Below are positions 22,899 to 40,408 of a DNA stretch of 43,713 bases, in pieces; position 1 is the first letter of the stretch; every line of letters starts with the position of its first letter. Location of the stretch: positions 1 through 43,713 of the forward strand of contig JAFAPI010000228.1 in assembly GCA_019247195.1 (NCBI GenBank), read 5' to 3'. A program made the translations under genes and the position numbers. Origin of the DNA: Gammaproteobacteria bacterium. GTDB taxonomy: Bacteria; Pseudomonadota; Gammaproteobacteria; Steroidobacterales; Steroidobacteraceae. The notes beneath the pieces are model-generated. The model worked only from the letters and a program-made list of their open reading frames with translations. It was not told the DNA's origin and searched no databases.

Positions 22899-25313
22899 TC
22901 AGCTGCGCAGCCGCAGGCCGCGCGGGTCATAGAGCGGCTCGAGCCGCACCGTGGCGCGGCGCATCGTTCCGAGGATGTCGATCTCGAAGTGCTCGCCCTC
23001 ACGCGCGAGCGCCGCCGGAACATAGCCCGCCGCGAGGCTGCGGTCGATGCAGTGCCCGTAGGCACCTGAGGTGACGTAGCCGACCGCGGCACCCTCCTTG
23101 AGGATCGACTCGTAGCCGACCACCTCCGCGTCGGCGTCCTCGACCTCGAGGACGACGAAGCGGCGCCGCGCGCCGGTGGCGCGCTCGGCGAGTGCAGCGG
23201 CCCGTCCCGTGAACTCGCCCTTCTCGAAGTCGATGAAGCGGTCGAGGCCGGTCTCGGCGGCGGTGTAATCGGGGCGGAAGTCCTTGTTGAAGGAGCCGTA
23301 GCCCTTCTCCAGCCGCAGCGAGGACAGCGCCCGGCCGCCGAAATGGGTGAGCCCGAGATCGGCGCCGGCCGCGAGCACCTCCTCGTAGAGCGTGAGGAGG
23401 TAATCGGGCGTGGTCCAGACTTCATAGCCGAGCTCGCCGGTGAAGCCGGCGCGGCTGAGAACTGCGGGGACCAGCCCCACCGCGGTCTCCGTGACCCGGA
23501 ACAGCCGGAATGCCTCGGCCGACAGGTCGATGCGCACCAGGCGCTGCAGCAGCTCCCGGGCGCGCGGACCGGCGATCGACAGGCCGCCGAGGGTCGAGGC
23601 GGCCGAGCGCACCGCGACATCCGGCGGCGGCTCGGCGGCCCAGAACCAGCGCAGGTGGTACTCCTCGGCGAAACCCGAGCCGATGATGAGGTAGCGCTCC
23701 TCGTTCAGACAGGCGATCGAGAGGTCCCCCACGATCCGTCCCGCGGCATTGAGCATCGGGGCGAGTGCAATGCGACCCGGGCGCGGAAGGCGGCAGGCGA
23801 ACACGCGGTCGAGCCAGGCCCGCGCGCCACGGCCGGTGACCTCGTACTTGCCGTAGTTGGTCGTCTCATAAAGCCCGACACTCCGCCGCACCGCGCGGCA
23901 CTCCTCGCGCACGACCGGGAAGGCCTCCGAGCGGCGGTAAGTGGGCGTCTCCTCGGGCCGCATCCCCGGGGGCGCGAACCAGAGCGCATGCTCCAGTCCG
24001 AAGTTCGCGCCCATCACCGCGCCCAGGGCGCCGAAGCGCTCGTAGAGCGGTGAACGGCGCAGTGGCCGCGCCGCGGGCAGCTCCTCGTTGGGGTAGGCGA
24101 GCCGGAAGCGCCGGGCGTAGTTCTCCGGCACCTTGAGGGCGCTGTACTTCGGCGTCGCGAAGGCGCCGAAGCGCGCCACGTCCATCGACAGGATGTCCTG
24201 CCCCGGATCGTTCTCCGCCATCCAGCGCGACAGCACCAGGCCGATGCCCCCGCCCTGGCTGAATCCGGCCATGACGGCGCAGGCCACCCAATAGTTGCGC
24301 AAGCCCCGCACCGGTCCGACCAGCGGGTTGCCATCGGGGGCGAAGGTGAAGGGCCCGTTTACCGCCTTGCGGATGCCGACCCGGCCGAGGGCGGGGAAGT
24401 GACGAAACCCGACCTCGAAATAGGGGGCGAGCCGCTCGGTGTCTTCCGGCAGCAGCTGCATCGAGAAGTCATCGGGAGTGCGCTCGGGGGACCAGATCAG
24501 GCCGTGCGGCTCGTAAGTGCCGATCAGTACGCCGCCGCGCTCCTGGCGCACGTAAATCTCACCGGCGTAGTCGGTGGTGTTGACCAGCTCGCGGGCCCGG
24601 CCGCGCAGCTCCGGCAGATCCTCGGTGATCAGGTAGTGGTGCTCCATGGCGAGCACCGGCAGCTCGATGCCGACCAGGTGGCCGACCTCGCGGGCCCACA
24701 GGCCGGCGCAGTTGACCACGTGCTCAGCGTGTATCTCGCCCCGGTCGGTGCGGACGTCCCAGCTGCCGTCGCGGCGCGGCTCAAGCGCCTGCACGCGCGT
24801 GAAGCGCTCCACCTCCGCACCCAGCTGCCGCGCCGCCTTGGCGTAAGCCTGCGTGGTACCCGAGGGGTCGCAGTGCCCGCCGTCTGCGCGCCAGAGGGCG
24901 CCGATGAAATACTGCGGGTCGATGAGCGGGTTGAACTCGCGTGCCTCGGCGACCGAGATCATCTGCGTCTCCATGCCGAGATAACGGGCGCGGGAGCAGA
25001 TGAGACGCAGGCTGTCGAGCTCCCCCTGGTTCGCGGCGAGCATCAGGCCACCGTTGGGGTGCAGGCCGCAGGACTGGCCAGAGAGCGCCTCGATCTCCCG
25101 GTAAAGGTCGATGGTGTACTTCTGCAGGCGCGAGATATTGGCTTCGCCGTTGAAGGTGTGCATCCCGCCTGCGGCGTGCCAGGTGGATCCGGAAGTGAGC
25201 TCTGCCTTCTCGAGCAGGACCACGTCGCGCCAGCCGATTTTGGCGAGGTGATACAGCACGCTGGCACCGACCACTCCACCGCCGATCACGACGGCGCGCG
25301 CAGAACTCTTCAT
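22899..25313 (-). CDS. dimethylglycine/sarcosine dehydrogenase-family flavoprotein
   Basis: An 804-residue protein. N-terminal DAO domain with VIGGGVVGASVLYHLAKIG and GSTWHAAGG, whose His46 matches the covalent FAD-attachment His of mammalian dimethylglycine dehydrogenase. A middle FAO-type domain follows, then GCV_T and GCV_T C-terminal domains (about 430-800) that in relatives bind tetrahydrofolate and capture the released methyl as methylene-THF. The family oxidises N-methyl groups of dimethylglycine, sarcosine and similar secondary or tertiary amines. Its ATG overlaps the soxG stop by 4 bases, so it is the fifth gene of the sox operon. The true substrate could be an N-methylated taurine rather than a glycine; the sequence does not decide. 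Confidence 0.9.
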   Translation of the reverse strand: MKSSARAVVIGGGVVGASVLYHLAKIGWRDVVLLEKAELTSGSTWHAAGGMHTFNGEANISRLQKYTIDLYREIEALSGQSCGLHPNGGLMLAANQGELDSLRLICSRARYLGMETQMISVAEAREFNPLIDPQYFIGALWRADGGHCDPSGTTQAYAKAARQLGAEVERFTRVQALEPRRDGSWDVRTDRGEIHAEHVVNCAGLWAREVGHLVGIELPVLAMEHHYLITEDLPELRGRARELVNTTDYAGEIYVRQERGGVLIGTYEPHGLIWSPERTPDDFSMQLLPEDTERLAPYFEVGFRHFPALGRVGIRKAVNGPFTFAPDGNPLVGPVRGLRNYWVACAVMAGFSQGGGIGLVLSRWMAENDPGQDILSMDVARFGAFATPKYSALKVPENYARRFRLAYPNEELPAARPLRRSPLYERFGALGAVMGANFGLEHALWFAPPGMRPEETPTYRRSEAFPVVREECRAVRRSVGLYETTNYGKYEVTGRGARAWLDRVFACRLPRPGRIALAPMLNAAGRIVGDLSIACLNEERYLIIGSGFAEEYHLRWFWAAEPPPDVAVRSAASTLGGLSIAGPRARELLQRLVRIDLSAEAFRLFRVTETAVGLVPAVLSRAGFTGELGYEVWTTPDYLLTLYEEVLAAGADLGLTHFGGRALSSLRLEKGYGSFNKDFRPDYTAAETGLDRFIDFEKGEFTGRAAALAERATGARRRFVVLEVEDADAEVVGYESILKEGAAVGYVTSGAYGHCIDRSLAAGYVPAALAREGEHFEIDILGTMRRATVRLEPLYDPRGLRLRS

Positions 25314-25867
25314 CGGCTCGACTCTCCGGTCAGCTGCTGGAAGGGTACGTCACGCTCGGTGAGGGGTGCGAGCGCGCGGGCGCTCAGCAGCAGCCACTCG
25401 TGCAGGTGCTGCGCGAGGCTGGCCGGCGCGAGCAGCAGCATACCGTGCGCCAGGGCGAGCAGCGTGACGGGCGTCTGCGCGATCAGGGTCGCCCCAGCGC
25501 GGTTGGGGGCGAGCTCATCGCCCCCAAGATCGAGGCGGCAGCCGCGGGCGAGCAGCTCGCGATGCGCGGGGCCGGCGACCCACAGGCCCCGCAGCCCCGC
25601 GCCGCGCTCGAGCACCACCGCGTCGGCGGCCGAGGGCGCGAGGGCGGCGGCGAGGGCAGGCGCCCCGGGCGCTCCGAGCAGCAGCCAGCGATCAGGCCGC
25701 ACGCTGACCCCGAGCAGCGCGCCGAGGACGGCCGCGTGCTGCAGGGCCGGCAGCCGTCCCGCGTGACGCGACTGCAGGGCCTCGCGACGCCCGGGGCGCG
25801 CGATGATCTCGGCCGCGTCGAGCTCGCAGCATCCCACGGTGAGCGGCGCGGCGTCAGACGCGGACAC
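25310..25867 (-). CDS. soxG: sarcosine oxidase gamma subunit
   Basis: A 185-residue protein overlapping soxA by 14 bases and the next gene by 4. The segment LLARGCRLDLGGDELAPNRAGATLIAQTPV is shortened here to its keys: a Gly-Cys-x-Leu-Asp-Leu motif and the NRAGATL/PVTLL region characteristic of SoxG, a small subunit related to GCV_T domains. It helps assemble the heterotetrameric enzyme and has no catalytic residues of its own. The N-terminal third is Ala/Leu-rich and poorly conserved, as usual for this subunit. Position after soxA supports the call. Confidence 0.88.
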   Translation of the reverse strand: MSASDAAPLTVGCCELDAAEIIARPGRREALQSRHAGRLPALQHAAVLGALLGVSVRPDRWLLLGAPGAPALAAALAPSAADAVVLERGAGLRGLWVAGPAHRELLARGCRLDLGGDELAPNRAGATLIAQTPVTLLALAHGMLLLAPASLAQHLHEWLLLSARALAPLTERDVPFQQLTGESSR

Positions 25868-28766
25868 GTCGGTTGTCCGGATCGTGGAAGTGGGGCGATA
25901 CCACCTCGAGGGGCACGCGCTCCGCGTGCAGGGGGGAGACGCCGAGCAGCCGCTGGCCGCGGCAGGCGCGCCCGTCGGTCAGCAGTGCCAGTCCGAACCA
26001 GCCGGCCTGCACCGTGCACGGGGTGGAGGAAGTGATGTAACCGAGACTGTCCGCGGCGGCGGACTCGCGCACCAGGTGCATGCCGTTGCGCAGCCGCGCG
26101 GCGCCCTCGGGTCGCACTCCGACCAGCTGTAGCCGCGGCGCCGCCGCGGCGCTGCGGCGTGCGAAGGTGGCGCCCACGAAATCGCCCTCGCGCTTGAGCA
26201 ATCGACCCATCCCCAGATCCTCGGCGCTGGTGTTGCCGTTGAGCTCCGCGCTGGTCACGTGCCCCTTTTCGATCCGCAGCGTGTTGAGGGCATCGAGCCC
26301 ATAGGGCCGGAGGCCGTGCGGCCCCCCGGCCGCCAGCAGCGCCAGCCAGAGGGACTCCGCGTGACGGACCGGTATCGCGAGCTCGTACGCAAGCTCGCCG
26401 GAGAAGGAGATGCGGAACAGCCGCAGCGGGGCGTCCCGGAATCCGAAGGTGGTGACGCCCATGAACGGCAGGGCCTCGGGACCTACGTCGGTCTCGGGCA
26501 ACAGCGCCGCCAGCACCGCGCGCGCCCGGGGGCCAGCGAGCGCGAACTGCGCCCAGTCCTCGCCGACGTCGCTGAGATGCACCTCCCAGCCGGGACAATG
26601 CGCCTGCAGCTGGAACTCGAGGTGCTCGAGCACCGCGGCGGCGTTGACGGTGGTGGTCGTCACCACGAAGTGCTCGGGGCCAAGCCTCGAGGTGGTGCCA
26701 TCATCGAGCAGCATGCCGTCCTCACGCAGCATGAGGCCGTAACGCGCGCGGCCGACCGGTAGGCTCGAGAACGCATTGGCGTAGATGAAGTCAAGGAACC
26801 GCGCGGCGTCGGCGCCGCGTACGTCGATCTTGCCCAGGGTCGAGACGTCGGTGAGCCCCACGCCGTTGCGCACCGCGCGCGCTTCCTCGAGCACCGGAGC
26901 CCAGCCCGCGCCGCCGTACACCAGCGGTCGCTGCCACAGCCCGGTGTTGACGAAGGTCGCGCCGGCGGCGTGATGCCACGCCTGCAGCGGCAGGCGCCGC
27001 CGCGGCCGGTAATGAGCGCCGACCTCAGCTCCGGCCAAGGTCGCGAAGGCGGTCGGCTGCAGGTAAGGCCGCGCCTGCGGTACCCCGACCTCTGCCACCG
27101 CCACCCCGCGCGCAGCCGCCAGCACCGCGCTGCCGAGCAGTCCGCCGATGCGCCCCTGATCGGTACCCATGCCGTGCGTGGTGTAACGCTTCATGTGCTC
27201 GACGTCGGTGTAGCCCTCGCGCGCGGCGAGCCGCACGTCCTCGGTCGTGACGTCGTTCTGCAGATCCACGAAGGCCTTGCCCCGGCCCGGCACCTCCCAC
27301 AGCGCCTGGGCGGGGGTGCGAGTGCCTTCCGCGGGCAGACCGCCGGGCAACTCGGCGACGTCCGCGAGCCCCAGGTCGGGCGCCAGGCGCCGCGCGGCCA
27401 CGAACCCCTCGCGGGCACAGCTCGCGAGCCCCTCACAGCCAGTCGCCGACCCGACGCTCGCCCCCTGCGCCGGATCGAGCGGGGCGACAAAGGCGCCTGC
27501 GCCCTCATGCCAGACGGGTCTCGCCCCCAACTGCGTCGCGAGCCCGATCGCGGGCGAATGACCGCCCGAGAGCAGCACCCCGTCCACGGCCAGCGATCGG
27601 CGCGTACCGCTGGCCGTCGCGAGTTCGATCGCGCGTACCGTGCGTCCACCCCGGATCCCCGTGATCCGCGACCCTGCATGGACCGGCACCCCGCACGTCC
27701 GGGCCGCGTCCATCGCGGCAGACTCGCGCCGCACGTCGATGACCGAGCAGTCGACCCCTGCTTCCTTGAGGGCCATCGCGCCCGCGTAGGCCTGATCATT
27801 GTTGAGGAACCAGGCGAGGCGCTGTCCGGGCACCACCCCGTAGCGGCGCAGGTAGGCGAGGGCCGCGCCCGCCAGCATCACCCCGGGCCGGTCGTTGCCC
27901 GCCACGGCCACCAAGCGCTCCACGGCCCCGGTGGCGAGCACGAGGCGACGCACCCGCAGCACCCAGAGCCGCTCACTGGGCCCCGGGCCGTCCGGGAGCG
28001 CCTCGCGCGCGGCGAAGACCCCGTGACCATAGGCGCCCAGCACGGCGGTGCGTGTCAGGCAGCGCACGTGCCCCATGTGCGCGAGGTCCGCGGCCAGGCG
28101 ATCGCACCAGGGCCGCGCCTCGGGCTCGAGCAATGCTCCGCCGCCGAGGCGCACGTCCTGCTCGGCGAGCACCACCCGCGCCCCCGCGCGCCCGAGCGCC
28201 CAGGCGGCGGCGAGACCGGCCGCACCCGCGCCCACCACCAGCACATCCGCGTGCGCGTGCACGCTCTCCGCGGTCGCGGCGTGCGACGCTGCGTACGGTG
28301 GGTCGAGGCGGCCGAGGCCGGCCGCACGCCGGATCAGCGGCTCATAGATCCGCTCCCAGGCCCAGCCCGGCGCCATGAAGGTCTTGTAGTAAAAGCCGGC
28401 GGGCAGGAAGCGGCTCAGGCGGTCATTGAGCGAGAGCAAGTCCCAGCGCAGCGAGGGCCAGCGGTTCTGACTGCGTGCCCGCAGGTGCGCCGTGAGCGGC
28501 AGTGTCGTCGCCAGCTGGTTCGGGCGCCGCCCGTGTGGGGTCAGCACGTCGACCAGCGCGCAGGTCTCCTCCGCACCGCAGCTGACGATTCCGCGCGGCC
28601 GGTGGTACTTGAAACTGCGGCCGATGAGCCGCACGCCATTCGCCAGCAGCGCCGAGGCGAGCGTGTCGCCGCCGAGGCCATGCAGCGTCCGTCCGTCGAA
28701 CTCGAAGGGTAGCGGCCGCGCCGGATCGACCAGCAGCCCCGGGCCGATGCGCCGTGGGGTGCTCAC
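25854..28766 (-). CDS. soxA: sarcosine oxidase alpha subunit
   Basis: GTG (complement of 28764-28766) overlaps the soxD stop as GTGA and gives 970 residues, near the 965-970 of characterised SoxA. A ferredoxin-like N-terminal domain (GRSFKYHRPRGIVSCGAEE) is followed by an NAD-binding Rossmann domain (VLVVGAGAAGLAAAWALG), a second dinucleotide domain, and C-terminal GCV_T domains that bind tetrahydrofolate. In the complex it holds NAD and shuttles the methylene group to THF. Second largest gene of the soxB-D-A-G operon. Accessory one-carbon genes often near sox operons (glyA, folD, purU) are absent here. A longer upstream extension of the frame lies in soxD and is unlikely. Confidence 0.95.
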   Translation of the reverse strand: MSTPRRIGPGLLVDPARPLPFEFDGRTLHGLGGDTLASALLANGVRLIGRSFKYHRPRGIVSCGAEETCALVDVLTPHGRRPNQLATTLPLTAHLRARSQNRWPSLRWDLLSLNDRLSRFLPAGFYYKTFMAPGWAWERIYEPLIRRAAGLGRLDPPYAASHAATAESVHAHADVLVVGAGAAGLAAAWALGRAGARVVLAEQDVRLGGGALLEPEARPWCDRLAADLAHMGHVRCLTRTAVLGAYGHGVFAAREALPDGPGPSERLWVLRVRRLVLATGAVERLVAVAGNDRPGVMLAGAALAYLRRYGVVPGQRLAWFLNNDQAYAGAMALKEAGVDCSVIDVRRESAAMDAARTCGVPVHAGSRITGIRGGRTVRAIELATASGTRRSLAVDGVLLSGGHSPAIGLATQLGARPVWHEGAGAFVAPLDPAQGASVGSATGCEGLASCAREGFVAARRLAPDLGLADVAELPGGLPAEGTRTPAQALWEVPGRGKAFVDLQNDVTTEDVRLAAREGYTDVEHMKRYTTHGMGTDQGRIGGLLGSAVLAAARGVAVAEVGVPQARPYLQPTAFATLAGAEVGAHYRPRRRLPLQAWHHAAGATFVNTGLWQRPLVYGGAGWAPVLEEARAVRNGVGLTDVSTLGKIDVRGADAARFLDFIYANAFSSLPVGRARYGLMLREDGMLLDDGTTSRLGPEHFVVTTTTVNAAAVLEHLEFQLQAHCPGWEVHLSDVGEDWAQFALAGPRARAVLAALLPETDVGPEALPFMGVTTFGFRDAPLRLFRISFSGELAYELAIPVRHAESLWLALLAAGGPHGLRPYGLDALNTLRIEKGHVTSAELNGNTSAEDLGMGRLLKREGDFVGATFARRSAAAAPRLQLVGVRPEGAARLRNGMHLVRESAAADSLGYITSSTPCTVQAGWFGLALLTDGRACRGQRLLGVSPLHAERVPLEVVSPHFHDPDNRRVRV

Positions 28767-29035
28767 GGCGCCGGCTCCGCGGGCGCGTCGAGCGCATCGC
28801 GCGCCGACTCGATGGCGTGCGTCAGCGTGTGCCGGCGCACGATGAGCAGACGACGGCAGCCCGCCACGTGCAGCCACCACTCCGTGTGCCAGCCCGCCGG
28901 GTTCGCGCGCGCATAGACGAAGCGCGTGAAGGCCTCGATGCCCGCAGCGGCGGCCGGCCGCGCGAGCATCGCGCCGCGATAGCGGAACTCCACCTCATCA
29001 CGCAGGCCGCACCAGGGACAGGGGATACGCAGCAT
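28763..29035 (-). CDS. soxD: sarcosine oxidase delta subunit
   Basis: A 90-residue protein with a zinc-binding start: CPWC at residues 6-9 and the motifs EFRYRG and GWHTEWWLHVAGCRR, which carry the other Cys/His ligands. This is the SoxD signature. It is a small structural subunit located between soxB (2 bases upstream) and soxA (4-base overlap). No enzyme activity of its own is expected. The tight spacing implies coupled translation. Confidence 0.95.
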   Translation of the reverse strand: MLRIPCPWCGLRDEVEFRYRGAMLARPAAAAGIEAFTRFVYARANPAGWHTEWWLHVAGCRRLLIVRRHTLTHAIESARDALDAPAEPAP

Positions 29036-29037
29036 CG

Positions 29038-30330
29038 TCAGTGGGCGTACGGGTACGGACCGGCGCCGCGCTCATCGACCGTGCACCCGCGCGCGAAGCG
29101 GTCGAGGCACAGGTGTGCCGCGAGGGGGTGGGGCGTGCCTGTTGCGATCAGGTGGGCGGTCGTGAGGCCGCCCGCGGGGATGGCCTTGAAGCCGCCGTAA
29201 CACCAACCGCCGTTGAGCACCAAGCCGGCGAGCGGCGTCGGGGAGATGAGCGGCGAGCCGTCCATGGTCATGTCCATGACGCCGCCCCACTGCCGCAGCA
29301 CTTTCACCGGTGCCAGCGCGGGCAGCAATGTCACCGCCGCGGCCGTCACTTCCTCCACCATCGGCAGCGCGCCGCGCTGCGCATAGCTGTTGTAGCCGTC
29401 GATCGCGCCGCCGAATACCAGTCCGCCCTTGTCCGACTGGCTGACATAGAAGTGTCCTGCCCCGTAGGTCAGCACCACGTCGAGCAGGGGCTTCAGCCCC
29501 TCCGTCACGAAGGCCTGCAGGACGTGCGTCTCGATGGGCAGGGTCAGGCCCGCCATGGCGGCGAGCCGCGAGGAGTGCCCGGCGACCGCAAGACACACCG
29601 TGTCGGCGGCGATGAAGCCACGCGCAGTTTCCACCCCGAGCGCGCGACCCCCCGCGCAGCGGATGCCCGTGACCGGGCAGTGCTCGATGATGTCCACCCC
29701 GAGAGCGCTGGCGGCGCGCGCATAGCCCCACGCCACGGCGTCGTGCCGTACCGTGCCACCCCGCGGCTGCAGGAACCCGCCCAGCACCGGGAAGCGGCCG
29801 TTGTCGAGGTCGACCAGCGGCACGCGCGCCTGTACGGCCTCGCGGCTCAGCACCTCCGCGTCCACCCCGAGCAGGCGCATCTGGTTAGCCCGGCGCGTAA
29901 AGAGGTCGCGCTGCGCCTCGGTGTGGAAGAGATTGAGCGTACCGCGCTGGCTCACCATGGTGTTGAAGTTGAGCCGCTGCTCGAGTCCCTCCCACAGCCG
30001 CAGCGAGTAGTCGTAGAAACGAATGTTGGCCGGATGGAAGTAGTTCGAGCGCACGATCGTGGTGTTGCGACCGACGTTGCCGAGTCCGATGGGGCCGCGC
30101 TCGATGACGGCGACATCGTGGATGCCGTATTCGCTGGCCAGATAGAACGCCGTTGCCAGCCCATGACCGCCGCCGCCGACGATCACCACCTGGTAGCGTT
30201 CGCGCGGCGCGGCCGCGCGCCACGCGCGGGGCCAGCCCGCCTGGGCGCGCAGGCCCTCGCGCAGCAGCCGCCACAGCGAGTAGGGCGGCGCGGTGGAACG
30301 GCGGCGGGGGGCGGGGGGAGGGGCGGGCAT
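29038..30330 (-). CDS. soxB: sarcosine oxidase beta subunit
   Basis: ATG (complement of 30328-30330) gives 430 residues. No strong ribosome binding site is seen, which may fit a very short leader if the -10 box at 30343-30348 is real. Motifs: YSLWRLLREGLR near the N-terminus, FAD-binding VVIVGGGGHGLATAFYL, NVGRNTTIVRSNYF, and RHDAVAWGYARAA with His196, the expected covalent FMN site (His173 in known enzymes, offset by the longer N-terminus). It is the catalytic flavoprotein subunit that oxidises N-methyl amines to methylene groups. First gene of the soxBDAG-DMGDH-like unit and divergent from the quaternary-amine ABC importer. Confidence 0.93.
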   Translation of the reverse strand: MPAPPPAPRRRSTAPPYSLWRLLREGLRAQAGWPRAWRAAAPRERYQVVIVGGGGHGLATAFYLASEYGIHDVAVIERGPIGLGNVGRNTTIVRSNYFHPANIRFYDYSLRLWEGLEQRLNFNTMVSQRGTLNLFHTEAQRDLFTRRANQMRLLGVDAEVLSREAVQARVPLVDLDNGRFPVLGGFLQPRGGTVRHDAVAWGYARAASALGVDIIEHCPVTGIRCAGGRALGVETARGFIAADTVCLAVAGHSSRLAAMAGLTLPIETHVLQAFVTEGLKPLLDVVLTYGAGHFYVSQSDKGGLVFGGAIDGYNSYAQRGALPMVEEVTAAAVTLLPALAPVKVLRQWGGVMDMTMDGSPLISPTPLAGLVLNGGWCYGGFKAIPAGGLTTAHLIATGTPHPLAAHLCLDRFARGCTVDERGAGPYPYAH

Positions 30331-30359: not shown

Positions 30360-30433
30360 GCGCGCCGGCAGCCGCGTGCTTGACGTGCGGCCGGTGAGCA
30401 GACAACGTGCGCCGGGGATCTGGAGGTGTGCCG

Positions 30434-31357
30434 GTGAGGAGGTTCAGCCGCGCGCTGTGCGCCGCGCTGCTCGGCGCGTGTCTGTGCGCGCCGCTGCAGG
30501 CGACGGTCGTCGTGTCGTCGAAGCTCTCGAGCGAGTCGGCGATGATCGGCCAGATGATCCGACTGCTGCTCAATGCGCACGGCATCGCGACCGTGGACCG
30601 CACCCGCATCGGCGCGACCCCGGTCGTGCGCCGGGCGTTGCTCGCCGGGGAGATCGACCTGTACGTCGAGTACACCGGCAACGCCGGACTCTTCTATAAC
30701 GACCCGCAGAACCCCGCCTGGCGCGATCTGCGCAGCGGCTACGAGCTCGGCGCCCGCCTCGACCAGGCGGCGCACCAGATCATCTGGCTGACGCCCGCCC
30801 CCGCAAGCAATGCCTGGGCGCTCGCCGTGCGCAGCGACGTCGCCGCGGCCTACCGCCTGCGCTCGATGAGCGACTTTGCGCGCTGGGTACGCTCCGGGGG
30901 GCACGTGGTGCTGGCCTGCTCGGCGGAGTTTGCCAACGCCGGTACGCTGCGCTCGCTCGAGCGGACTTATGGATTCCTGCTGAGCTCCGCCCAGCTCATC
31001 GTGCTCGCCGGAGGGGAGACCTCGGCCACCATCGCGGCCGCCGCCGCGGCCACCAACGGCACCAACACCGCCATGGTCTATGGCACCGACGGGGGTATCG
31101 TGGCGGCGCACCTGCAGATGCTGGTCGACGACCGCCACGACCAGCCGATCTACGCCCCCGTACCCCTGGTGCGCGCGAGCGTACTCGCCGCGCATCCGCA
31201 GATCGCGACGTTGGTCCGCCCGCTCATGGAGAGCCTCGACACCGCGACGCTGCAGCGCCTCAACGAGCGCGTGCAGATCGAGGGCGAGGCCGACGAGGAA
31301 GTGGCGCGCGATTACTTGCAGCAGCGCGGCTTTCTCGCTGCGGCCGGGTACCGCTGA
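30434..31357 (+). CDS. ABC importer substrate-binding protein, glycine betaine/choline (OsmF/YehZ-like)
   Basis: The GTG at 30434 has GGAGG 7 bases upstream and gives 307 residues; GTGs at 30407 and 30428 are in frame but less well placed. A signal peptide (about 1-23, RRFSRALCAALLGACLCAPLQA) leads into VVVSSKLSSESAMIGQMIRLLL, IDLYVEYTGNAG and AMVYGTDGGI, typical of OpuAC/ProX-class binding proteins of quaternary amines. It captures betaine-like compounds in the periplasm. First of a four-gene ABC operon in the same order as E. coli yehZYXW. Ligand not decidable by eye; aromatic cage residues would need a structure. Confidence 0.88.
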   Translation: MRRFSRALCAALLGACLCAPLQATVVVSSKLSSESAMIGQMIRLLLNAHGIATVDRTRIGATPVVRRALLAGEIDLYVEYTGNAGLFYNDPQNPAWRDLRSGYELGARLDQAAHQIIWLTPAPASNAWALAVRSDVAAAYRLRSMSDFARWVRSGGHVVLACSAEFANAGTLRSLERTYGFLLSSAQLIVLAGGETSATIAAAAAATNGTNTAMVYGTDGGIVAAHLQMLVDDRHDQPIYAPVPLVRASVLAAHPQIATLVRPLMESLDTATLQRLNERVQIEGEADEEVARDYLQQRGFLAAAGYR

Positions 31358-31360
31358 GCC

Positions 31361-32536
31361 ATGTCGGCACTCGCCGCCCCCCTCACCGCCGCACCGCGCC
31401 GCATCGAGCCGCTCGGCGCACTGCTGACGCTCGCGGGCGCGCTCGCGCTTACCTGGCTGCCGTTCGTGCTGGTGAAGGCCAACCGCATCGTCCCGGGTAC
31501 TCCCCTCGGGGTCGGGGCGGCGCTGCCGCCCGCCGTCGCCGGCGGTCTGATCGTGCTGCTGGTCGGCGCCGCGGCGGTCGGGCTCTGCGTCGGCGCTCCC
31601 CGCGTGCGCCTCCTCGCCGCCCTGACCGCGCTCGCCGGCCTCGCGCTGGCGGTGGGCCTCGCGGGCAGTCTGCTCACGCCGGGGGGCAACCGGGTCGTGC
31701 GGGTCGCGCCCGGCGGAGCGTTCTGGGTGGTGCTGGTCTGCCTCGGTCTGCTGGCGACCGACGCGCTCACGCGTCTGCGACCGCGGCCCCTGGTGCGGGT
31801 GTTGGCGCTCGGGCTGTTGCTCGGGATCGTAGTCGCCGCGCTGGCGAGCGGCTGGTTCGACCACCTGTCGATCCTGCGCGAGTATGCGGTAAACGCGGCG
31901 CGCTTCGCGCAGGAGCTGCGCCGGCACGTGCTGCTCGCCTTTGGCTCGCTGCTCGCCGCGGCCCTGGTCGGTCTGCCGCTCGGCATCCTCTGCCACCGGG
32001 TACCGCGCCTGCGGCCCGGCGTGCTTGGCACGCTCAATGTGATCCAGACCATCCCCGCCATCGCGCTGTTCGGCATCCTCATGGCGCCGCTCGGGGCGCT
32101 GGCCGGCGGTTTTCCGGCGCTGCAGCGCCTGGGGGTGAGCGGCATCGGCGCCGCGCCGGCGGTGGTGGCGCTGTTTCTGTACTCGCTGCTGCCCATCGTC
32201 GCCAACACTGCCAGCGGTCTTGCGCGGGTCTCGCGCGCGGCGGTCGACGCGGCGCGCGGCATGGGCATGACCCACTGGCAGGTGCTGCGGGGCATCGAGC
32301 TGCGGCTCGCGCTGCCGGTGATCATCACCGGCGTGCGGGTCGTGCTGGTGCAGAACATCGGCATGGTGACGGTGGCGGCGCTGATCGGCGGTGGCGGCCT
32401 CGGGACCTTCGTCTTCCAGGGCATCGGCCAGACGGCCATCGACCTGGTACTGCTCGGAGCCATACCGACCGTCGCTCTGGCCTTCAGCTCCGCGGTGCTG
32501 CTCGACGCGCTGGCGGAGACACTGGAGCGACGATGA
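31361..32536 (+). CDS. ABC importer permease (YehY/OpuBB-like, extended)
   Basis: A 391-residue inner-membrane protein starting 3 bases after the binding-protein stop. The N-terminal half adds about five hydrophobic helices (residues about 15-150) not found in short OpuBB permeases, as in YehY. The C-terminal half is the ABC permease core with ELRRHVLLAFGSLLAAALVG and the EAA-like loop DAARGMGMTHWQVLRGIELRLALP that contacts the ATPase. Its stop overlaps the ATPase start by 4 bases. Role: transport channel for a quaternary amine. Confidence 0.9.
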   Translation: MSALAAPLTAAPRRIEPLGALLTLAGALALTWLPFVLVKANRIVPGTPLGVGAALPPAVAGGLIVLLVGAAAVGLCVGAPRVRLLAALTALAGLALAVGLAGSLLTPGGNRVVRVAPGGAFWVVLVCLGLLATDALTRLRPRPLVRVLALGLLLGIVVAALASGWFDHLSILREYAVNAARFAQELRRHVLLAFGSLLAAALVGLPLGILCHRVPRLRPGVLGTLNVIQTIPAIALFGILMAPLGALAGGFPALQRLGVSGIGAAPAVVALFLYSLLPIVANTASGLARVSRAAVDAARGMGMTHWQVLRGIELRLALPVIITGVRVVLVQNIGMVTVAALIGGGGLGTFVFQGIGQTAIDLVLLGAIPTVALAFSSAVLLDALAETLERR

Positions 32537-33468
32537 TCACCATAGAGCATCTGGCCAAGCAGTACGGGACGAAGGCCGTCGTGGAGGACGTGAACCTCAC
32601 CATCGAGCGCAACTCGATCGCGGTCATCGTCGGCACGTCGGGCTCGGGCAAGTCGACCCTGCTGCGGATGATCAACCGTCTGATCGAGCCCAGCGCGGGT
32701 CGCGTGCTCATCGAGGGTGCGGACACCCGCGAGGAGCCCGCCCATCTGCTGCGGCGGCGCATCGGCTACGCCATCCAGGGACACGGACTTTTTCCGCATC
32801 GCACGGTCGAGGAGAACATCGCCACCGTGCCGCGGCTACTCAAGTGGCCGGCGGCACGCATCGCCGCGCGGGTACGCGAGCTCCTCGAGGTGTTCCAGCT
32901 CGAGCCAGCGACTTACGCCCACGCCTTTCCGCACCAGCTCTCCGGCGGGCAGCAGCAGCGGGTCGGCGTGGCGCGCGCCCTCGCGGCCGAGCCGGCCGTG
33001 CTGCTCATGGACGAGCCGTTCGGAGCGCTCGATCCCATCATCCGCGCCAAGGCGCAGGAGGACCTGCTGGCGATCCAGCGCCGCTACGGCACGACCATCG
33101 TCCTCGTCACCCACGACATGGACGAGGCCTTCCGTCTCGGCGACCGCGTCGCGGTGATGAGCAATGGCCGGGTGCTGCAGTTTGATACGCCGGCGGCGCT
33201 CCTCGCTCACCCGGCCGATCCGCTGGTGACGCGCATGACCGGCCAGACCGACCGCGCGCTGCGTCTGCTGTCGCTGACGACCGCCGGTGAGATCGCCGCG
33301 CCGGGCGCAGTCCCCGGGCCGACGGTCAGCGCGGCGGCGAGTCTGCGCGATGTGCTGTCCGAGCTCTTGTGGCGCGGCGCCGAAGCCGCGTCGGTGACGC
33401 GCGAGGATGGCACGCCGTGCGGGCACGTGAGTGTCGCCGCCCTGCTGCGCCACGGCAGGTCGCCGTGA
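32533..33468 (+). CDS. ABC importer ATPase (OpuCA/ProV/YehX-like)
   Basis: A 311-residue ATP-binding protein. Walker A is GTSGSGKST (34-42), the Q-loop lies in YAIQGHGLF, the signature is LSGGQQQR, Walker B is [12 protein letters not shown], and the switch His is in LVTHDMDE. Residues about 240-311 form a shortened CBS-like tail ([22 protein letters not shown]), typical of the quaternary-amine importer ATPases, where CBS domains can sense ionic strength or c-di-AMP. Start and stop overlap the neighbouring permeases by 4 bases each (ATGA and GTGA), implying coupled translation. Confidence 0.95.
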
Positions 33469-34205
33469 AGCACGGTCCGCTCCTGCTGCGCGGCCTCGCG
33501 CTGCTGCTGCTGGTGTCGTTTGTCATCGCGCCGCAGCGTTTTGCGCCGCTGTTCGCGCCACTGACCCAGTACGGCGCGCCCCCTATCTACGACCAGGGGA
33601 ATCTGCTGACACTCACGCTCGCGCACCTGGGCACGGTGTGCCTCGCTGCCGCGGCCAGCACCCTCATCGCGGTCGCGCTCGCGATCCTCGTCACCCGGCA
33701 GAGCGGACGCGCCTTCCTGCCGCTGTCGCGCACCCTGGTGAACATTGGCCAGACCTTTCCCCCCGTCGCGGTGCTCGCGATCACCGTGCCGCTCGTCGGT
33801 TTCGGGGAAATCCCCACCTTGATCGCGCTCTTTGCCTATGGGCTGTTGCCGATCTTCGAAAACACCCTCGTCGGCCTGCAAACGCTGCCGCCGGCGGTGA
33901 CTGAGGCGGCCGACGGCATGGGACTGAGCGCCCGCGAGCGGCTATTCTCGGTCGAGCTTCCGTTAGCTATGCCATTGATTTTAGAAGGAATAAGACTGTC
34001 ACTGGTCATCAACGTGGGCACCGCCACCATCGGCTCCACGGTCGCGGCCAAGGGGCTGGGGGAGGTCATCATCGCCGGACTTCTGTCCAATAACACCGCC
34101 TTCATCCTGCAGGGGGGCTTGGTCACCGCGCTGATGGCGGTGCTCCTGTACGAGGGAATGCTAGCGGTCGAGCGGCGCCTCTGCCGCAGCGTCCGCACCG
34201 ACTGA
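33465..34205 (+). CDS. ABC importer permease (YehW/OpuBD-like)
   Basis: The GTG at 33465 overlaps the ATPase stop and gives 246 residues with about six membrane helices. The EAA loop is EAADGMGLSARERLFSVELP. Together with the 391-residue permease it forms the membrane channel. Odd feature: codons for residues 166-178 (33960-33998) are TTA, GCT, CCA, TTG, ATT, TTA, GAA, GGA, ATA, AGA and the like, in a gene where nearly every other codon ends in G or C. The amino acids themselves (PLAMPLILEGIRL) fit the family, so the protein is not disrupted. Confidence 0.92.
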   Translation: MKHGPLLLRGLALLLLVSFVIAPQRFAPLFAPLTQYGAPPIYDQGNLLTLTLAHLGTVCLAAAASTLIAVALAILVTRQSGRAFLPLSRTLVNIGQTFPPVAVLAITVPLVGFGEIPTLIALFAYGLLPIFENTLVGLQTLPPAVTEAADGMGLSARERLFSVELPLAMPLILEGIRLSLVINVGTATIGSTVAAKGLGEVIIAGLLSNNTAFILQGGLVTALMAVLLYEGMLAVERRLCRSVRTD

Positions 34206-34349: not shown

Positions 34350-35309
34350 ATGACACCCATCGAACTAGGTGCGGCGACACCGGCCGGTGACGTCGCCGTG
34401 CTCGACGCACGCGGACGCCGCCGCGCGCTAGAGATGCCCACCGTGATGCTGCTCGGCCTGGCGTATGGCGGCTGGATGACGGTCACCCTGCAATACGCGC
34501 GCTGGCCGCTGTGGATCGTGTTGCCCCTCGCAGCGCTGCTGGTCGCGCTGCACAGCTCGCTCCAACACGAGATCGTGCACGGACACCCGACGCGCTGGGA
34601 GGGCATCAACCGCATGCTCGGCATGCTGCCGCTCGCCCTGTGGCTGCCCTTCGAGCGCTACCGCGTCCTGCACCGGCGCCATCACCACGACGCGCGCCTC
34701 ACCGACCCGCTTGACGACCCGGAGACGTTCTACTGGCGGCCCGAGGACTGGGCCCGCATGCGCCCCGCGACGCGCGTGATCCTGCAGGCGCAGCAGACCC
34801 TCGCCGGGCGGGTGCTGATCGGCAGCTGGTGGCACATCGCGGCATTCTGGCGTGCCGACTGGCGGCGGGGCCGCGACGGCGACGAGACGGTACTCGGCCA
34901 CTACCTTGAACACCTGCTGTGGTGCGTGCCGGTGCTGCTGTGGGTGAAGTTCGTGTGCGACATGCCCCTGTCGCTTTACGTGCTGGCCGTCGCGGTGCCG
35001 GCGAGTGGCATCCAGCTCATTCGTTCCTTCGCCGAGCATCGGGCCCTGCCGCAGGCCTCCGAGCGGGTGGCGATCGTCGAGGATTCCTGGCTGCTCGGGC
35101 CGCTCTTCCTCTTCAATAACCTGCATGCGGTGCACCACGAGGCGCCGCTCATTCCCTGGTACGAGCTGCCGGCGCGCTACCGCCTGATCCGCGAGCGCAT
35201 CATCGTGGCGAACGGCGGGCTGGTCTATCGCAGCTACCTCGAGGTCGCGCGCCGCTACCTGTTTCGCGCCCACGACGTGCTGACGCACCCGGACGGCCGG
35301 GTCCCCTAG
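34350..35309 (+). CDS. membrane di-iron fatty-acid-desaturase-family oxygenase
   Basis: A 319-residue membrane protein starting at ATG 34350. Three His boxes are present: HEIVHGH (73-79), HRRHHH (108-113) and HAVHHE (259-264), which bind the di-iron centre of membrane desaturases and hydroxylases. Hydrophobic helices lie at about 30-75, 185-225 and 245-258. The family includes lipid desaturases but also hydroxylases of small molecules. It is convergent with, and one base from, the PhnD-like gene. Gene context (amine importer on one side, MttB-like enzyme on the other) hints at a small-molecule hydroxylase, but a lipid role cannot be excluded. Confidence 0.85.
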   Translation: MTPIELGAATPAGDVAVLDARGRRRALEMPTVMLLGLAYGGWMTVTLQYARWPLWIVLPLAALLVALHSSLQHEIVHGHPTRWEGINRMLGMLPLALWLPFERYRVLHRRHHHDARLTDPLDDPETFYWRPEDWARMRPATRVILQAQQTLAGRVLIGSWWHIAAFWRADWRRGRDGDETVLGHYLEHLLWCVPVLLWVKFVCDMPLSLYVLAVAVPASGIQLIRSFAEHRALPQASERVAIVEDSWLLGPLFLFNNLHAVHHEAPLIPWYELPARYRLIRERIIVANGGLVYRSYLEVARRYLFRAHDVLTHPDGRVP

Positions 35310-35310
35310 C

Positions 35311-36126
35311 TCAGGCGGGCACCGGGTAACCGGCCGTCACCGCCTCGCGATCCCAGTCCAGCAGTGGCTGATAATCCTCGATGCGCGTCGGCGCGAAGCC
35401 GGCGATCGCGAGCGGCGCGGCGAGCGCGGCGAACCAGGGTCGCTCCGCCGCCGCGAGGAAGGCCGCGCGCAAGCGCTCGGTGAGCTCTCCGGGGGCGTCC
35501 TGCGCGGCGACGAAAGCGGGCATCGGCGTGAGGGGAGTTGAAGCGAGCGTGCGCACGCCCGCGGTCAGCTCGGGGGCGTGCTGACGCAGCAGCAGATGCC
35601 AGTAGGCATCGAGCGGGCCGACGTCGATGCGCCCCTCGCGCACCGCATCGAGGACGTTGCGTGCGGTGATGAGATTGTCGGTGACCTGGCCATAGAGTTG
35701 CGGGCGTGCAGCGGTCCGGTAGCGCAGCAGCTCGTGGCGGAAGGCGTTGAAACCGGACTGGGAATGGCTGACCGTCCAGCCGGCGCGGCCGCCAAAGGTA
35801 TCCTCGAGACAACCGTAGGGGGCGTCGGCGCGCACGATGAGGTCCGTGCGGTACACGGCGCGGCCGCCCGCCCAGGGCGCCGCCGGAATCGGCGCGGCGA
35901 GCGGGCGCGCCGGAGCCAGCCGCTGCGCCAGCGGATAGCCGCACATGAGTACGGCTCCCAGGTCGGGGCGCGACCAGAGTGCCTCGAGGGGCTGCGGCGC
36001 GGGGTAGGGCAGATAGCGCAGCGCCACCTGTGCATCCTCGCTCACGTGCTCGAGCAGCTCGCGCCAGACGCCCTCGACCGCCGCAGTGACGGCATACATG
36101 CGCGCGTTGGCGATCCACTCGGCCAC
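35311..36126 (-). CDS. PhnD/SsuA/transferrin-like substrate-binding protein without signal peptide
   Basis: GTG (complement of 36124-36126) gives 271 residues. The fold pattern of PhnD-type binding proteins is visible: GAVLMCGYPLAQRL, YRTDLIVRADAPY, FGGRAGWTVSHSQSGFNAFRHELL and DVGPLDAYWHLLL, where Ser/Thr and Asp residues line the usual ligand cleft. The N-terminus (MAEWIANARMYAVT) is not a secretion signal, so the protein may be cytoplasmic. It starts 9 bases after the MttB-like gene and shares its strand, so the pair probably acts together. Possible roles are ligand sensing or substrate delivery. Confidence 0.72.
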   Translation of the reverse strand: MAEWIANARMYAVTAAVEGVWRELLEHVSEDAQVALRYLPYPAPQPLEALWSRPDLGAVLMCGYPLAQRLAPARPLAAPIPAAPWAGGRAVYRTDLIVRADAPYGCLEDTFGGRAGWTVSHSQSGFNAFRHELLRYRTAARPQLYGQVTDNLITARNVLDAVREGRIDVGPLDAYWHLLLRQHAPELTAGVRTLASTPLTPMPAFVAAQDAPGELTERLRAAFLAAAERPWFAALAAPLAIAGFAPTRIEDYQPLLDWDREAVTAGYPVPA

Positions 36127-36135
36127 GAGTCGACT

Positions 36136-37677
36136 TTAGGTGGACGACAGCTCGCGGCTGCGGCGTTCGACGTAAGCGGCGATCGCCTCACGCACTGCAG
36201 GATCGAGCGGCGGCGGGGTGTACTCCGCGAGCAGTTTTTTCCACAGCCCGGTCGCGCGCTGCGTCGCATCCTTGGCGCCCGCCTCACGCCAGCTCTCATA
36301 GCTCGACCAGTCCGACAACAGGGGCCGGTAAAAGGCCGATTCGTAGCGGGCCAGCGTGTGACTGGCGCCGAAGAAGTGCCCGCCGGCGGCGACCTCCTTG
36401 ATGGCATCGATCGCCAGATCGTCCTCACTGAAATCAACGGGCTTGAGGATCTGCGCCCACTCGCGCAGCAGCTCGGCGTCCACGATGATCTTCTCCAGCG
36501 AGGCCGACAGTCCGCCTTCCAGCCAACCCACCGCGTGGTTGATGAGGTGGCTGTGGCTCAGGATCGCCGCCTGCAGCGAGAAACCGGTCTCATAGGTCGC
36601 CTGGGCATCGACCGCCGGTGAGGCGTTGACCGCGCTGGTGCGCACCGGCAGCTTCAGGCGCCGCCCGATCTGCGCGCTGGCGAGTACGGCGTGCACGTAT
36701 TCGGGGGTGCCGAAGGCAGGGGAGCCGCTGCGCATGTCGACGTTGGAAGTAAAGCCGCCCAGGACGCAGGGCGTGCCCGGCCGCACCAGCTGACAGAGCG
36801 CGACGATCGCCAGGCTCTCGGCGGTCTGCTGCACCAGCGCGCCGGCGAGGGTCACGGGCGCCATCGCGCCCATGAGTGTGAAGGGGGTGATGACCACGCA
36901 CTGCCCGTGCCGCGCCATGGTGAGGATGTTATCCAGGATCTCCTCGTCCACGCGGCGTGGCGAGTTGACGTTGGTGACGCTGAGCAGCGTGGGCCGCGTC
37001 GCGAGCGCCTCGATGCTGCAGCCGTGCTCGATGGCGGACATGGCAATGGCGTCACTCGCCTGCACCCCGCCGATGCCACGCGCCGCCCACACGATGTCCG
37101 CGTACTCGATGTGCGCCTGGTACATGGCCAGATGCCGGGTCGCCACGGGCAGATCCACCGGCTCGACGACGATCCCTCCCTGCCAGTGCAGCACCCCGAG
37201 CGCATGGGTGAGTTTGACGATATTGCGGAAGGCCTCGAGGTCGCCATAGCGCCGGCCGTGCTCCTCATCGCGGATGTGGGGCGCTCCGGTGACCGGACCA
37301 AAGTTAACGTGGTCCCCGCCCACCTGCAGATGGCGGGCGGGGTTGCGTGCGTGCAGCACGAAGCGCTCCGGCGCCTGGGCGAGCTGTGCGCCGATCAGAT
37401 CCCGGCCGATCCGCACCATCTGTGTGGGCTCGTCCACCAGGGCGCCGCCACGGCGGTAGATCTCGCGCGCCGCGGCACTACGCACCTCGACCCCCACTTC
37501 CTCGAGGACCCGGTAGGCGCCCAGGAGGATGCGCTCGATCTGCTCGGGGCTATACAGCTCGAGCGGAGGGAAGGGGTTACGCAGCGACGGCAGCGGCGCG
37601 AGCGAGGCGCCCGTCTGGCGTGGAGCCCGTGTGCGCTCGCGGCGGCGCGCCGGTGAGGGAGCGGGACCTTCGGTCAT
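36136..37677 (-). CDS. MttB-family (trimethylamine methyltransferase-like) protein, non-pyrrolysine
   Basis: A 513-residue protein, close to the usual 470-510 of the family plus a charged N-terminal tail. MttB-family segments include LEEVGVEVRS, VNFGPVTGAPHIRD, LHWQGGIVVEPVD and LGGFTSNVDMRSGSPAFGTPEY. The frame runs without an in-frame amber codon, so it is a non-pyrrolysine homologue like glycine betaine:corrinoid methyltransferase MtgB. Such enzymes move a methyl group from a quaternary amine to a corrinoid protein. No corrinoid protein or methylcorrinoid:THF methyltransferase gene is in the window. Forms a two-gene unit with the PhnD-like protein. Substrate unknown. Confidence 0.87.
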   Translation of the reverse strand: MTEGPAPSPARRRERTRAPRQTGASLAPLPSLRNPFPPLELYSPEQIERILLGAYRVLEEVGVEVRSAAAREIYRRGGALVDEPTQMVRIGRDLIGAQLAQAPERFVLHARNPARHLQVGGDHVNFGPVTGAPHIRDEEHGRRYGDLEAFRNIVKLTHALGVLHWQGGIVVEPVDLPVATRHLAMYQAHIEYADIVWAARGIGGVQASDAIAMSAIEHGCSIEALATRPTLLSVTNVNSPRRVDEEILDNILTMARHGQCVVITPFTLMGAMAPVTLAGALVQQTAESLAIVALCQLVRPGTPCVLGGFTSNVDMRSGSPAFGTPEYVHAVLASAQIGRRLKLPVRTSAVNASPAVDAQATYETGFSLQAAILSHSHLINHAVGWLEGGLSASLEKIIVDAELLREWAQILKPVDFSEDDLAIDAIKEVAAGGHFFGASHTLARYESAFYRPLLSDWSSYESWREAGAKDATQRATGLWKKLLAEYTPPPLDPAVREAIAAYVERRSRELSST

Positions 37678-39586: not shown

Positions 39587-40408
39587 ATGTCGGCCGTACC
39601 TGACGAGCCCGTGGAGGGTGCCGCCGTCCAGGCGTTCCAGCGCGACGGGGCCACGGTGCTGCGGGGGCTCTTCAGCGCGGCGGAGATGGCGCTCCTCGTT
39701 GCAGGGATCGAGGCAAACCTCGCTCGCCCGAGCGCGCGGGCGAAGGTGGCGAGCGGCAGGGGGGACCCGGGCCTGTTCATCGAGGACTTCTGCTGCTGGC
39801 AGGAGAACGAGGCGTATCGCCGCTTCATCTTCGGGTCGCGCCTCGGCGCGGTCGCCGCCCGGCTGATGCGCAGCGAGGAAGTGCGCCTCTATCACGATCA
39901 CATGCTGACCAAGGAATCCGGCACGCGCCAACGCACTCCGTGGCACCAGGACCAGCCCTACTACAACATCAGCGGCACCCAGAACGTGAGCTTCTGGATT
40001 CCCGTGGACCCGGTTCCGCGCGAATCCACGCTGGAGCTGATCGCCGGGTCGCACCGCGGTCCCTGGCGGATGCCCCGCTCCTTCCTCGATGCCCAGGCGC
40101 GCTGGTTTCCGGAGGGCTCCCTCGCCGAGTTGCCGGACATCGAGGCGCACCGCGAGTCATTTCCGATCCTCGGCTGGGCGCTCCAACCCGGCGATGCGGT
40201 GTGCTTCCACATGCTCACCCTGCACGGCAGCGCGGGGGTGCCGGCCGGAACGCGGCGTCGGGTATTTTCGGTACGGTTGCTCGGGGATGACATCCGGCAC
40301 GAGCCGCGGGCCTGGCCGACTTCCCCGGAATTTCCCGGTCTGGACCTGCCGCGCGGTGCGCCGATGGCGCACCCGCTCTTTCCGCGGCTCTGGCCGCGCG
40401 CCGCCTAG
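39587..40408 (+). CDS. phytanoyl-CoA dioxygenase (PhyH)-family iron/2-oxoglutarate oxygenase
   Basis: ATG 39587 has AAAGGA at 8 bases; ATG 39578 is in frame but too close to the site. The product is 273 residues. The facial triad is His120-x-Asp122 in TPWHQDQPYYNI and His213 in LTLHGSAGVPAGTRRR, with a following Arg to hold 2-oxoglutarate. ESTLELIAGSHRGPW is typical of PhyH enzymes. The family includes phytanoyl-CoA and ectoine hydroxylases and enzymes for other small polar molecules. Divergent from the DUF4398 lipoprotein and almost convergent with the response regulator (stops overlap). Substrate unknown. Confidence 0.88.
   Translation: MSAVPDEPVEGAAVQAFQRDGATVLRGLFSAAEMALLVAGIEANLARPSARAKVASGRGDPGLFIEDFCCWQENEAYRRFIFGSRLGAVAARLMRSEEVRLYHDHMLTKESGTRQRTPWHQDQPYYNISGTQNVSFWIPVDPVPRESTLELIAGSHRGPWRMPRSFLDAQARWFPEGSLAELPDIEAHRESFPILGWALQPGDAVCFHMLTLHGSAGVPAGTRRRVFSVRLLGDDIRHEPRAWPTSPEFPGLDLPRGAPMAHPLFPRLWPRAA

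Follow-up and report, generated by a model that had tools for sequence, protein, structure and literature searches.

A signal-less PhnD-like protein gene conserved beside an MttB-superfamily methyltransferase gene in a likely betaine-type demethylation locus

The window, by which we mean the whole 43.7-kb stretch of DNA analysed, encodes an MttB-superfamily methyltransferase and a PhnD-like protein, together with a desaturase-fold protein, an OsmF-type ABC transporter, a sarcosine oxidase, and a flavoprotein of the dimethylglycine/sarcosine dehydrogenase type. The features of the locus are as follows:

22899..25313, (-) strand, dimethylglycine/sarcosine dehydrogenase-like flavoprotein with DAO and GCV_T domains (PF01266 230 bits, PF01571 195 bits)
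25854..28766, (-) strand, sarcosine oxidase alpha subunit SoxA (PF17806, PF01571, PF13510)
28763..29035, (-) strand, sarcosine oxidase delta subunit SoxD (PF04267 92.4 bits)
29038..30282, (-) strand, sarcosine oxidase beta subunit SoxB (TIGR01373 610 bits, ORF residues 110-513)
30428..31357, (+) strand, substrate-binding protein of the OsmF-type quaternary-amine ABC transporter (PF04069 149 bits; start uncertain, 30407 or 30428)
31361-32536, (+) strand, ABC permease of the OsmF-type transporter, first gene of the transporter block 31361..34205
32533-33468, (+) strand, ProV-like ABC ATPase of the OsmF-type transporter
33465-34205, (+) strand, second ABC permease of the OsmF-type transporter
34350..35309, (+) strand, FA_desaturase-fold protein, putatively membrane di-iron, convergent with the PhnD-like gene (PF00487 97.8 bits)
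35311..36126, (-) strand, signal-less PhnD-like protein of the type II substrate-binding-protein fold, 271 aa, GTG start (PF12974 77.8 bits)
36127..36138, (-) strand, spacer (36127-36135) and MttB stop codon TAA (36136-36138), read directly from the sequence
36136..37677, (-) strand, MttB-superfamily (non-pyrrolysine) methyltransferase, 513 aa, ATG start (PF06253 608 bits)

The open reading frame of SoxB extends to 30609, and its homologous part begins near 30282. The OsmF-type substrate-binding protein scored 373.5 bits against NF049931, just under the cut-off of 400. A phytanoyl-CoA dioxygenase family gene (PF05721) is located at 39587-40408, and a homologue of it recurs near the methyltransferase and PhnD-like genes in several relatives. 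Two response-regulator-like genes that resemble each other and lie on the (-) strand (40405-41133 and 42664-43356) enclose a histidine-kinase-like gene (41346-42656, (+) strand); all three were identified from translations only. The part of the window that was annotated showed no HutH-like, urocanase-like or hut genes.

The match of the methyltransferase to the MTTB profile PF06253 (cut-off 25 bits) covers profile positions 3-499 of 500. Its open reading frame contains no internal amber codon or in-frame stop, and its score against TIGR02369 is 272.8 bits, under the cut-off of 525 for the pyrrolysine equivalog. Because of the absent amber codon and the low TIGR02369 score, the protein is, judged by its sequence, a non-pyrrolysine member of the superfamily and not MttB proper, the pyrrolysine-type trimethylamine methyltransferase. 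The solved structures nearest to it are 4YYC (365 bits) and the glycine betaine methyltransferases 2QNE and 9YCE (about 315 bits). The genome from which the window derives carries five MttB genes, including the window copy. The best-scoring of these paralogues are about 41-45% identical to the window MttB, whereas the MttB proteins linked to PhnD-like genes in other genomes are 65-82% identical to it and therefore form one orthologue group. The five paralogues may differ in substrate, and the window MttB need not act on glycine betaine. One orthologue (G031:C17:91953-93485) lies inside a 982-aa open frame that is far longer than the protein, probably reflecting a GC-rich open upstream region.

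The initial annotation had placed the MttB and PhnD-like genes 9 nt apart and had described the PhnD-like protein as lacking an export signal, and both statements hold. The spacer between the two genes, AGTCGACTC, is exactly 9 nt long. Since 9 is a multiple of three, the TAA codon of MttB is in frame with the PhnD-like gene, which makes a longer form impossible and rules out an exported protein translated from a missed upstream start. By inspection, the N-terminus (MAEWIANARMYAVTAAVEGVW...) contains no signal sequence, and the N-termini of 80 homologues are alike (MxxxIxNARMYAVTPE...) and equally devoid of one. Distant homologues with 26-45% identity also begin without a signal sequence. Judged by sequence, all homologues examined are, like the window protein, cytosolic.

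An AlphaFold model of the PhnD-like protein, built with 70 homologues (pLDDT 95), is predicted to have the type II substrate-binding-protein fold. The best match to the model in the PDB is AioX (6ESV, Z 27.9), and the best solved matches, AioX, ArrX, HtxB, PhnD, and PtxB, have Z values of 23-28. The oxyanion pocket of AioX includes residues Cys106, Tyr131, Ser161, Ser163, and Asp210 (PMC5908839), which in our alignment correspond to C62, Y92, S122, S124, and D173 of the window protein. Among 92 PhnD-like sequences, C62, S122, D173, and also Gly125 are invariant, S124 is present in 91, and Y92 in 84. His121, Asn127, Trp176, and His177 are invariant in all 70 close-family members, whether MttB is adjacent or not. 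The full pocket of AioX and ArrX (Tyr88, Cys106, Tyr131, Ser161, Ser163, His192, and Asp210) is not reproduced: the position of His192 is occupied by Ala155, which is invariant in the close family, and the equivalent of Tyr88 is not conserved. Because of the replacement of His192, the ligand is probably not of the AioX type. Arsenobetaine, an idea that came from the AioX-like cysteine, was set aside; the cysteine of the CGYP motif is general in the signal-less PhnD-like family. No arsenic genes were seen near the PhnD-like gene. The conservation of the pocket allows a ligand-binding role for the protein, and the invariance of the same residues with or without adjacent MttB speaks for a single ligand or reaction, conserved throughout. 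A small anion or zwitterion is the probable ligand.

The window protein scored 30.8 bits against the PhnD equivalog, which has a cut-off of 261, and its gene neighbourhood showed neither phosphonate transporter nor C-P lyase genes. Its operon does not contain a cognate phosphonate-type ABC permease or ATPase; the co-directional neighbour is MttB. The ABC genes located nearby belong to the OsmF-type transporter, which has a substrate-binding protein of its own.

The conservation of the pair in other genomes, which the initial annotation had left as a check, was borne out. Among 37 same-genus genomes, 13 encode an MttB orthologue (77-82% identity), and the identical 13 encode a PhnD-like orthologue (64-72%), in each case directly downstream of MttB; the other 24 genomes have neither. 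The chance of this pattern of co-presence is 1/C(37,13) = 2.8e-10 if phylogeny is ignored. A genome-wide scan found MttB immediately upstream in 46 of 80 PhnD-like loci, with gaps of 3-235 nt (median 18). The MttB-adjacent loci span Gamma- and Alphaproteobacteria, and the flanking genes differ in Alphaproteobacteria. In about ten of the 13 same-genus carriers, the OsmF-permease-ATPase-permease-desaturase block facing PhnD-MttB is syntenic. Co-presence together with adjacency across classes rules out that the two genes are chance neighbours. Nothing was found in the open-access literature on PhnD with a trimethylamine methyltransferase. MttB and a signal-less PhnD-like protein are genuinely associated, and this conserved association has apparently not been described before.

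In 33 of the 80 loci, the PhnD-like gene stands elsewhere than behind MttB. It overlaps or abuts an ornithine-cyclodeaminase/mu-crystallin (OCD) gene in eight loci, is followed by the gene of a TPR protein in 12, and by that of a TPP enzyme in others; these copies belong to the same family, with 54-64% identity. Eight of the 33 genomes with a non-adjacent copy keep an orthologous MttB (67-73%) elsewhere, and 21 lack MttB at E <= 1e-40. The TPR-containing protein, encoded directly 3' of the PhnD-like gene, is ~550 aa long and matches TPR in Pfam only weakly; its loci (L080, L082, L084, L089, L090, L099, L104, L107, L109, L112, L116, L122) come from Alphaproteobacteria, Latescibacterota, and Gemmatimonadota.

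The genes of the distant signal-less homologues (26-45% identity) cluster with those for OCD, HutH-like, urocanase-like, and OsmF proteins. Hut-like clusters with PhnD-like genes, mostly beside OCD, were observed at L151-L153, L165 (Rhizobium johnstonii pRL12), L168 (a Comamonadaceae plasmid), and L164 (Rhodococcus), and contain hutC and genes for a HutH-like lyase, a urocanase-like protein, and a GB-type ABC transporter. For the one HutH-like enzyme tested, the nearest solved structure is ergothionase, with 219 bits versus 208 for a probable histidine ammonia-lyase. This is suggestive of a possible role of the OCD-PhnD clusters in the breakdown of ergothioneine or histidine-betaine.

A desaturase-fold gene is present in 43 of the 80 close PhnD-like loci, and a homologue is located near most of the distant PhnD-like homologues. 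The desaturase, rather than MttB, is thus the most general neighbour of the family. Outside OCD/hut-type clusters, almost every signal-less PhnD-like gene examined has a desaturase-fold gene as its direct neighbour or at a distance of up to about 3 kb (window 34350-35309; L148, L149, L150, L154, L157-L161, L042-L044), even where the PhnD-like identity is 26-45% and MttB is absent. The pairing of desaturase and PhnD-like genes appears to be the more ancient one.

Catalysis is another conceivable function of the PhnD-like protein: with the fold of a substrate-binding protein, it would convert a metabolite that the MttB, OCD, and histidine/betaine clusters have in common, perhaps jointly with the linked desaturase-fold protein. 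Enzymes on this fold include MqnA/MqnD and THI5, and we know of none in PF12974. The cytosolic location of all homologues is consistent with catalysis, as are the residues invariant in the whole set of 92 sequences or in the close family, the catabolic neighbourhoods, which differ yet are chemically related, and the desaturase-fold gene beside most of the distant homologues. However, ligand binding, as in the AioX pocket, explains the conserved residues equally well, and we regard an enzymatic role as a tentative and rather unlikely proposal.

More doubtful is a dedicated role of the PhnD-like protein in MttB function, as a subunit or substrate carrier in physical contact with the enzyme, with MtgC as the normal acceptor. 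The perfect co-presence in the genus and the close spacing of the genes in two classes with differing flanks would fit such a complex. The divergence of MttB and that of the PhnD-like protein, measured as identities to the window copies, are correlated (r = 0.70), a value expected from shared ancestry alone. However, members of the same family lie behind OCD or before TPR-protein and TPP-enzyme genes, related copies occur in hut-like clusters, and the residues invariant in MttB-linked copies are invariant in the non-linked copies too. Because the family lives in many genomes without MttB (21 of the 33 tested), a dedicated carrier is improbable, and the idea of an obligate MttB partner is weakened. 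The distribution of the PhnD-like protein among genomes speaks against its being a subunit of MttB.

The initial annotation had regarded the methyltransferase as lacking a corrinoid partner and had proposed a different methyl acceptor. It was correct that the window encodes no corrinoid protein, as PF02607 has no match on the window's contig C85. The genome, that of a soil bacterium, comprises 3.18 Mb in 257 contigs and is 92% complete. A profile search with PF02607 identified two B12-binding_2 proteins in it, of which the one with a 1406-aa frame is probably MetH. The other is encoded on a 7.7-kb contig:

Contig C6, L026:3968-4666, MtgC-like corrinoid protein, 232 aa (PF02607 at C6:4022-4237, and PF02310)

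The MtgC-like protein carries the sequence DIHDIGK (cobalamin motif DIHDIG). Its best NCBIfam match is the MtgC model NF047996, with 208.9 bits, under the curated cut-off of 370, and its substrate class was therefore deduced from the neighbouring genes. Its operon also includes genes for DUF1638, MTHFR, a GbdR-like regulator (416 bits), and a methyl-THF:corrinoid methyltransferase (PRK07535 289.7 bits against a cut-off of 259), the last of which is cut by the contig end; a small PF13769 protein and a protein with the MTHFR C-terminal domain are likewise encoded around it. A fragment of a RamA-type activase (RACo_C_ter 188 bits) is located at the edge of contig C213, beside another MttB. The corrinoid protein, the methyl-THF:corrinoid methyltransferase, and the reductive activase of an MtgBCD-type system are all present in the genome. 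C6 ends within the methyltransferase gene and C213 (L027) starts within the activase gene; the two contigs may be the ends of one locus, because in the relative G026 a RamA-like gene follows the methyltransferase. No cobalamin riboswitch was detected upstream of the MtgC operon at the gathering threshold in six sources.

In the window's assembly, the MtgC operon is unlinked from the MttB-PhnD pair. In G026 (L035/L050) and at L124, the corrinoid operon is divergent from the MttB of the pair and starts about 0.2 kb away, and in two alphaproteobacterial loci (L106, L115) the PhnD-like gene is followed by MtgC-DUF1638-PF13769-RamA. A corrinoid gene linked to the pair in relatives is what the initial annotation had said would overturn its reading. 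The complete Terrarubrum flagellatum plasmid NZ_CP091854 carries MttB, PhnD-like, and MtgC genes in one cluster that crosses the record origin: sarcosine oxidase, DMGDH-like, bmt, and MttB (72.7% identical to that of the window), then a dipeptide-type ABC transporter, OCD, PhnD-like (61%), desaturase, B12-binding protein, and DUF1638. Genomes with the aerobic MtgBCD system contain up to seven pfam06253 genes with MtgC and MtgD, often dispersed, and a single core MtgC serves numerous MtgB-like enzymes, whose genes frequently lie elsewhere (PMC12478193). The apparent lack of a corrinoid partner is nothing unusual and comes from the fragmentation of the assembly, in which the partner gene lies at a distance.

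In view of the MtgC-like operon on C6 and the RamA-type activase on C213, a corrinoid-free system was rejected. The use of a non-corrinoid acceptor by the window MttB, be it the PhnD-like protein or a small molecule, agrees with the 43.7 kb devoid of a corrinoid gene; however, with the corrinoid protein, its methyltransferase, and the activase present in the genome, the MtgC operon adjoining the pair in relatives, and unlinked MtgC being normal in aerobes (PMC12478193), it is exceedingly improbable. The initial interpretation thus survives in part, as to a conserved pair and a cytosolic PhnD-like protein, and fails as to an acceptor other than a corrinoid protein. It is hardly credible that the PhnD-like protein is a drifting transporter remnant that lost its signal peptide, despite its fold kinship with periplasmic ABC binding proteins, since this is contradicted by its conservation (54-72% identity, 45 invariant positions over 70 sequences, several phyla), the distant homologues are signal-less too, and phosphonate-type permease genes are not linked to it.

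The window is likely to hold a locus for the uptake and demethylation of betaine-type quaternary amines by an MtgBCD system of the aerobic type, with a cytosolic PhnD-like accessory. From the gene content, the conservation of the pair, the presence of the corrinoid pathway, and the conserved fold and pocket, we infer the substrate, the choice of acceptor, and the PhnD-like function as follows. The OsmF-type ABC transporter would import a trimethylammonium compound, of which glycine betaine is the simplest candidate. MttB would pass one methyl group to the MtgC-like corrinoid protein encoded on C6, and the methyl-THF:corrinoid methyltransferase and MTHFR of the same operon would route it into folate C1 metabolism. 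The RamA-type protein would reactivate the corrinoid, and the linked DMGDH-like enzyme and sarcosine oxidase would process dimethylglycine- or sarcosine-type products. The PhnD-like protein, presumably co-translated with MttB, would stay in the cytosol; it is very unlikely to be a methyl acceptor and most likely binds the pathway substrate or a carboxylate product. It is possible that it serves as an intracellular ligand-handling accessory, as a sensor, or as a still-unrecognised enzyme on the substrate-binding-protein fold. The PhnD-like module recurs in other clusters for the catabolism of amino acids and betaines.

We consider it quite conceivable, if somewhat short of an even chance, that a cytosolic protein of the substrate-binding-protein fold takes a genuine part in the corrinoid-dependent demethylation of betaines and in related clusters for amino-acid catabolism, either by handling a ligand within the cell or as a new enzyme; it would partner MttB or OCD-type enzymes in different branches, and in most cases a desaturase-fold protein. 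Aerobic corrinoid-dependent demethylation of quaternary amines has been recognised only recently, and for most MttB paralogues no substrate has been assigned. The co-inherited and closely coupled cytosolic binding-fold protein offers a handle on one MttB orthologue group, and its ligand could reveal the substrate. A large family of signal-less proteins annotated as transporter components (PhnD/SsuA/transferrin type), often encoded beside a desaturase-fold gene, is probably misannotated in many genomes.

The arsenic-sensing PhnD-family proteins AioX and ArrX (6ESK, 6ESV, 6XAB) are the nearest solved relatives of the PhnD-like protein in fold (Z about 28, 22% identity) and have most pocket residues in common with it, including the cysteine of the CGYP motif. 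However, AioX resides in the periplasm and relays its signal to a histidine kinase, whereas the window protein lacks a signal sequence as well as the equivalents of His192 and Tyr88. The phosphonate-binding protein PhnD of E. coli (3P7I) shares the type II binding-protein fold and the SxSG anion-binding motif with the window protein, but is an exported ABC component. The window MttB belongs to the same superfamily as MtgB of Desulfitobacterium hafniense (2QNE, 9YCE), aligns with it over the full length, and is likewise of the non-pyrrolysine type; nevertheless, MtgB is only moderately similar, and 4YYC, a putative trimethylamine methyltransferase, is closer. The glycine betaine-demethylating MtgBCD system of aerobic bacteria such as Ruegeria pomeroyi (PMC12478193), in the description of which neither PhnD nor a desaturase is mentioned in the main text, resembles the system proposed here in its pfam06253 methyltransferase, separate MtgC, pterin methyltransferase, RamA, DUF1638, and MTHFR paralogue, and also in the presence of several MttB genes in a genome, the frequent separation of MtgB from MtgC, and the downstream oxidation of dimethylglycine and sarcosine. 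The group of the window MttB differs from it by the co-directional, closely spaced gene of a cytosolic PhnD-like protein and by the flanking OsmF-type transporter and desaturase genes.
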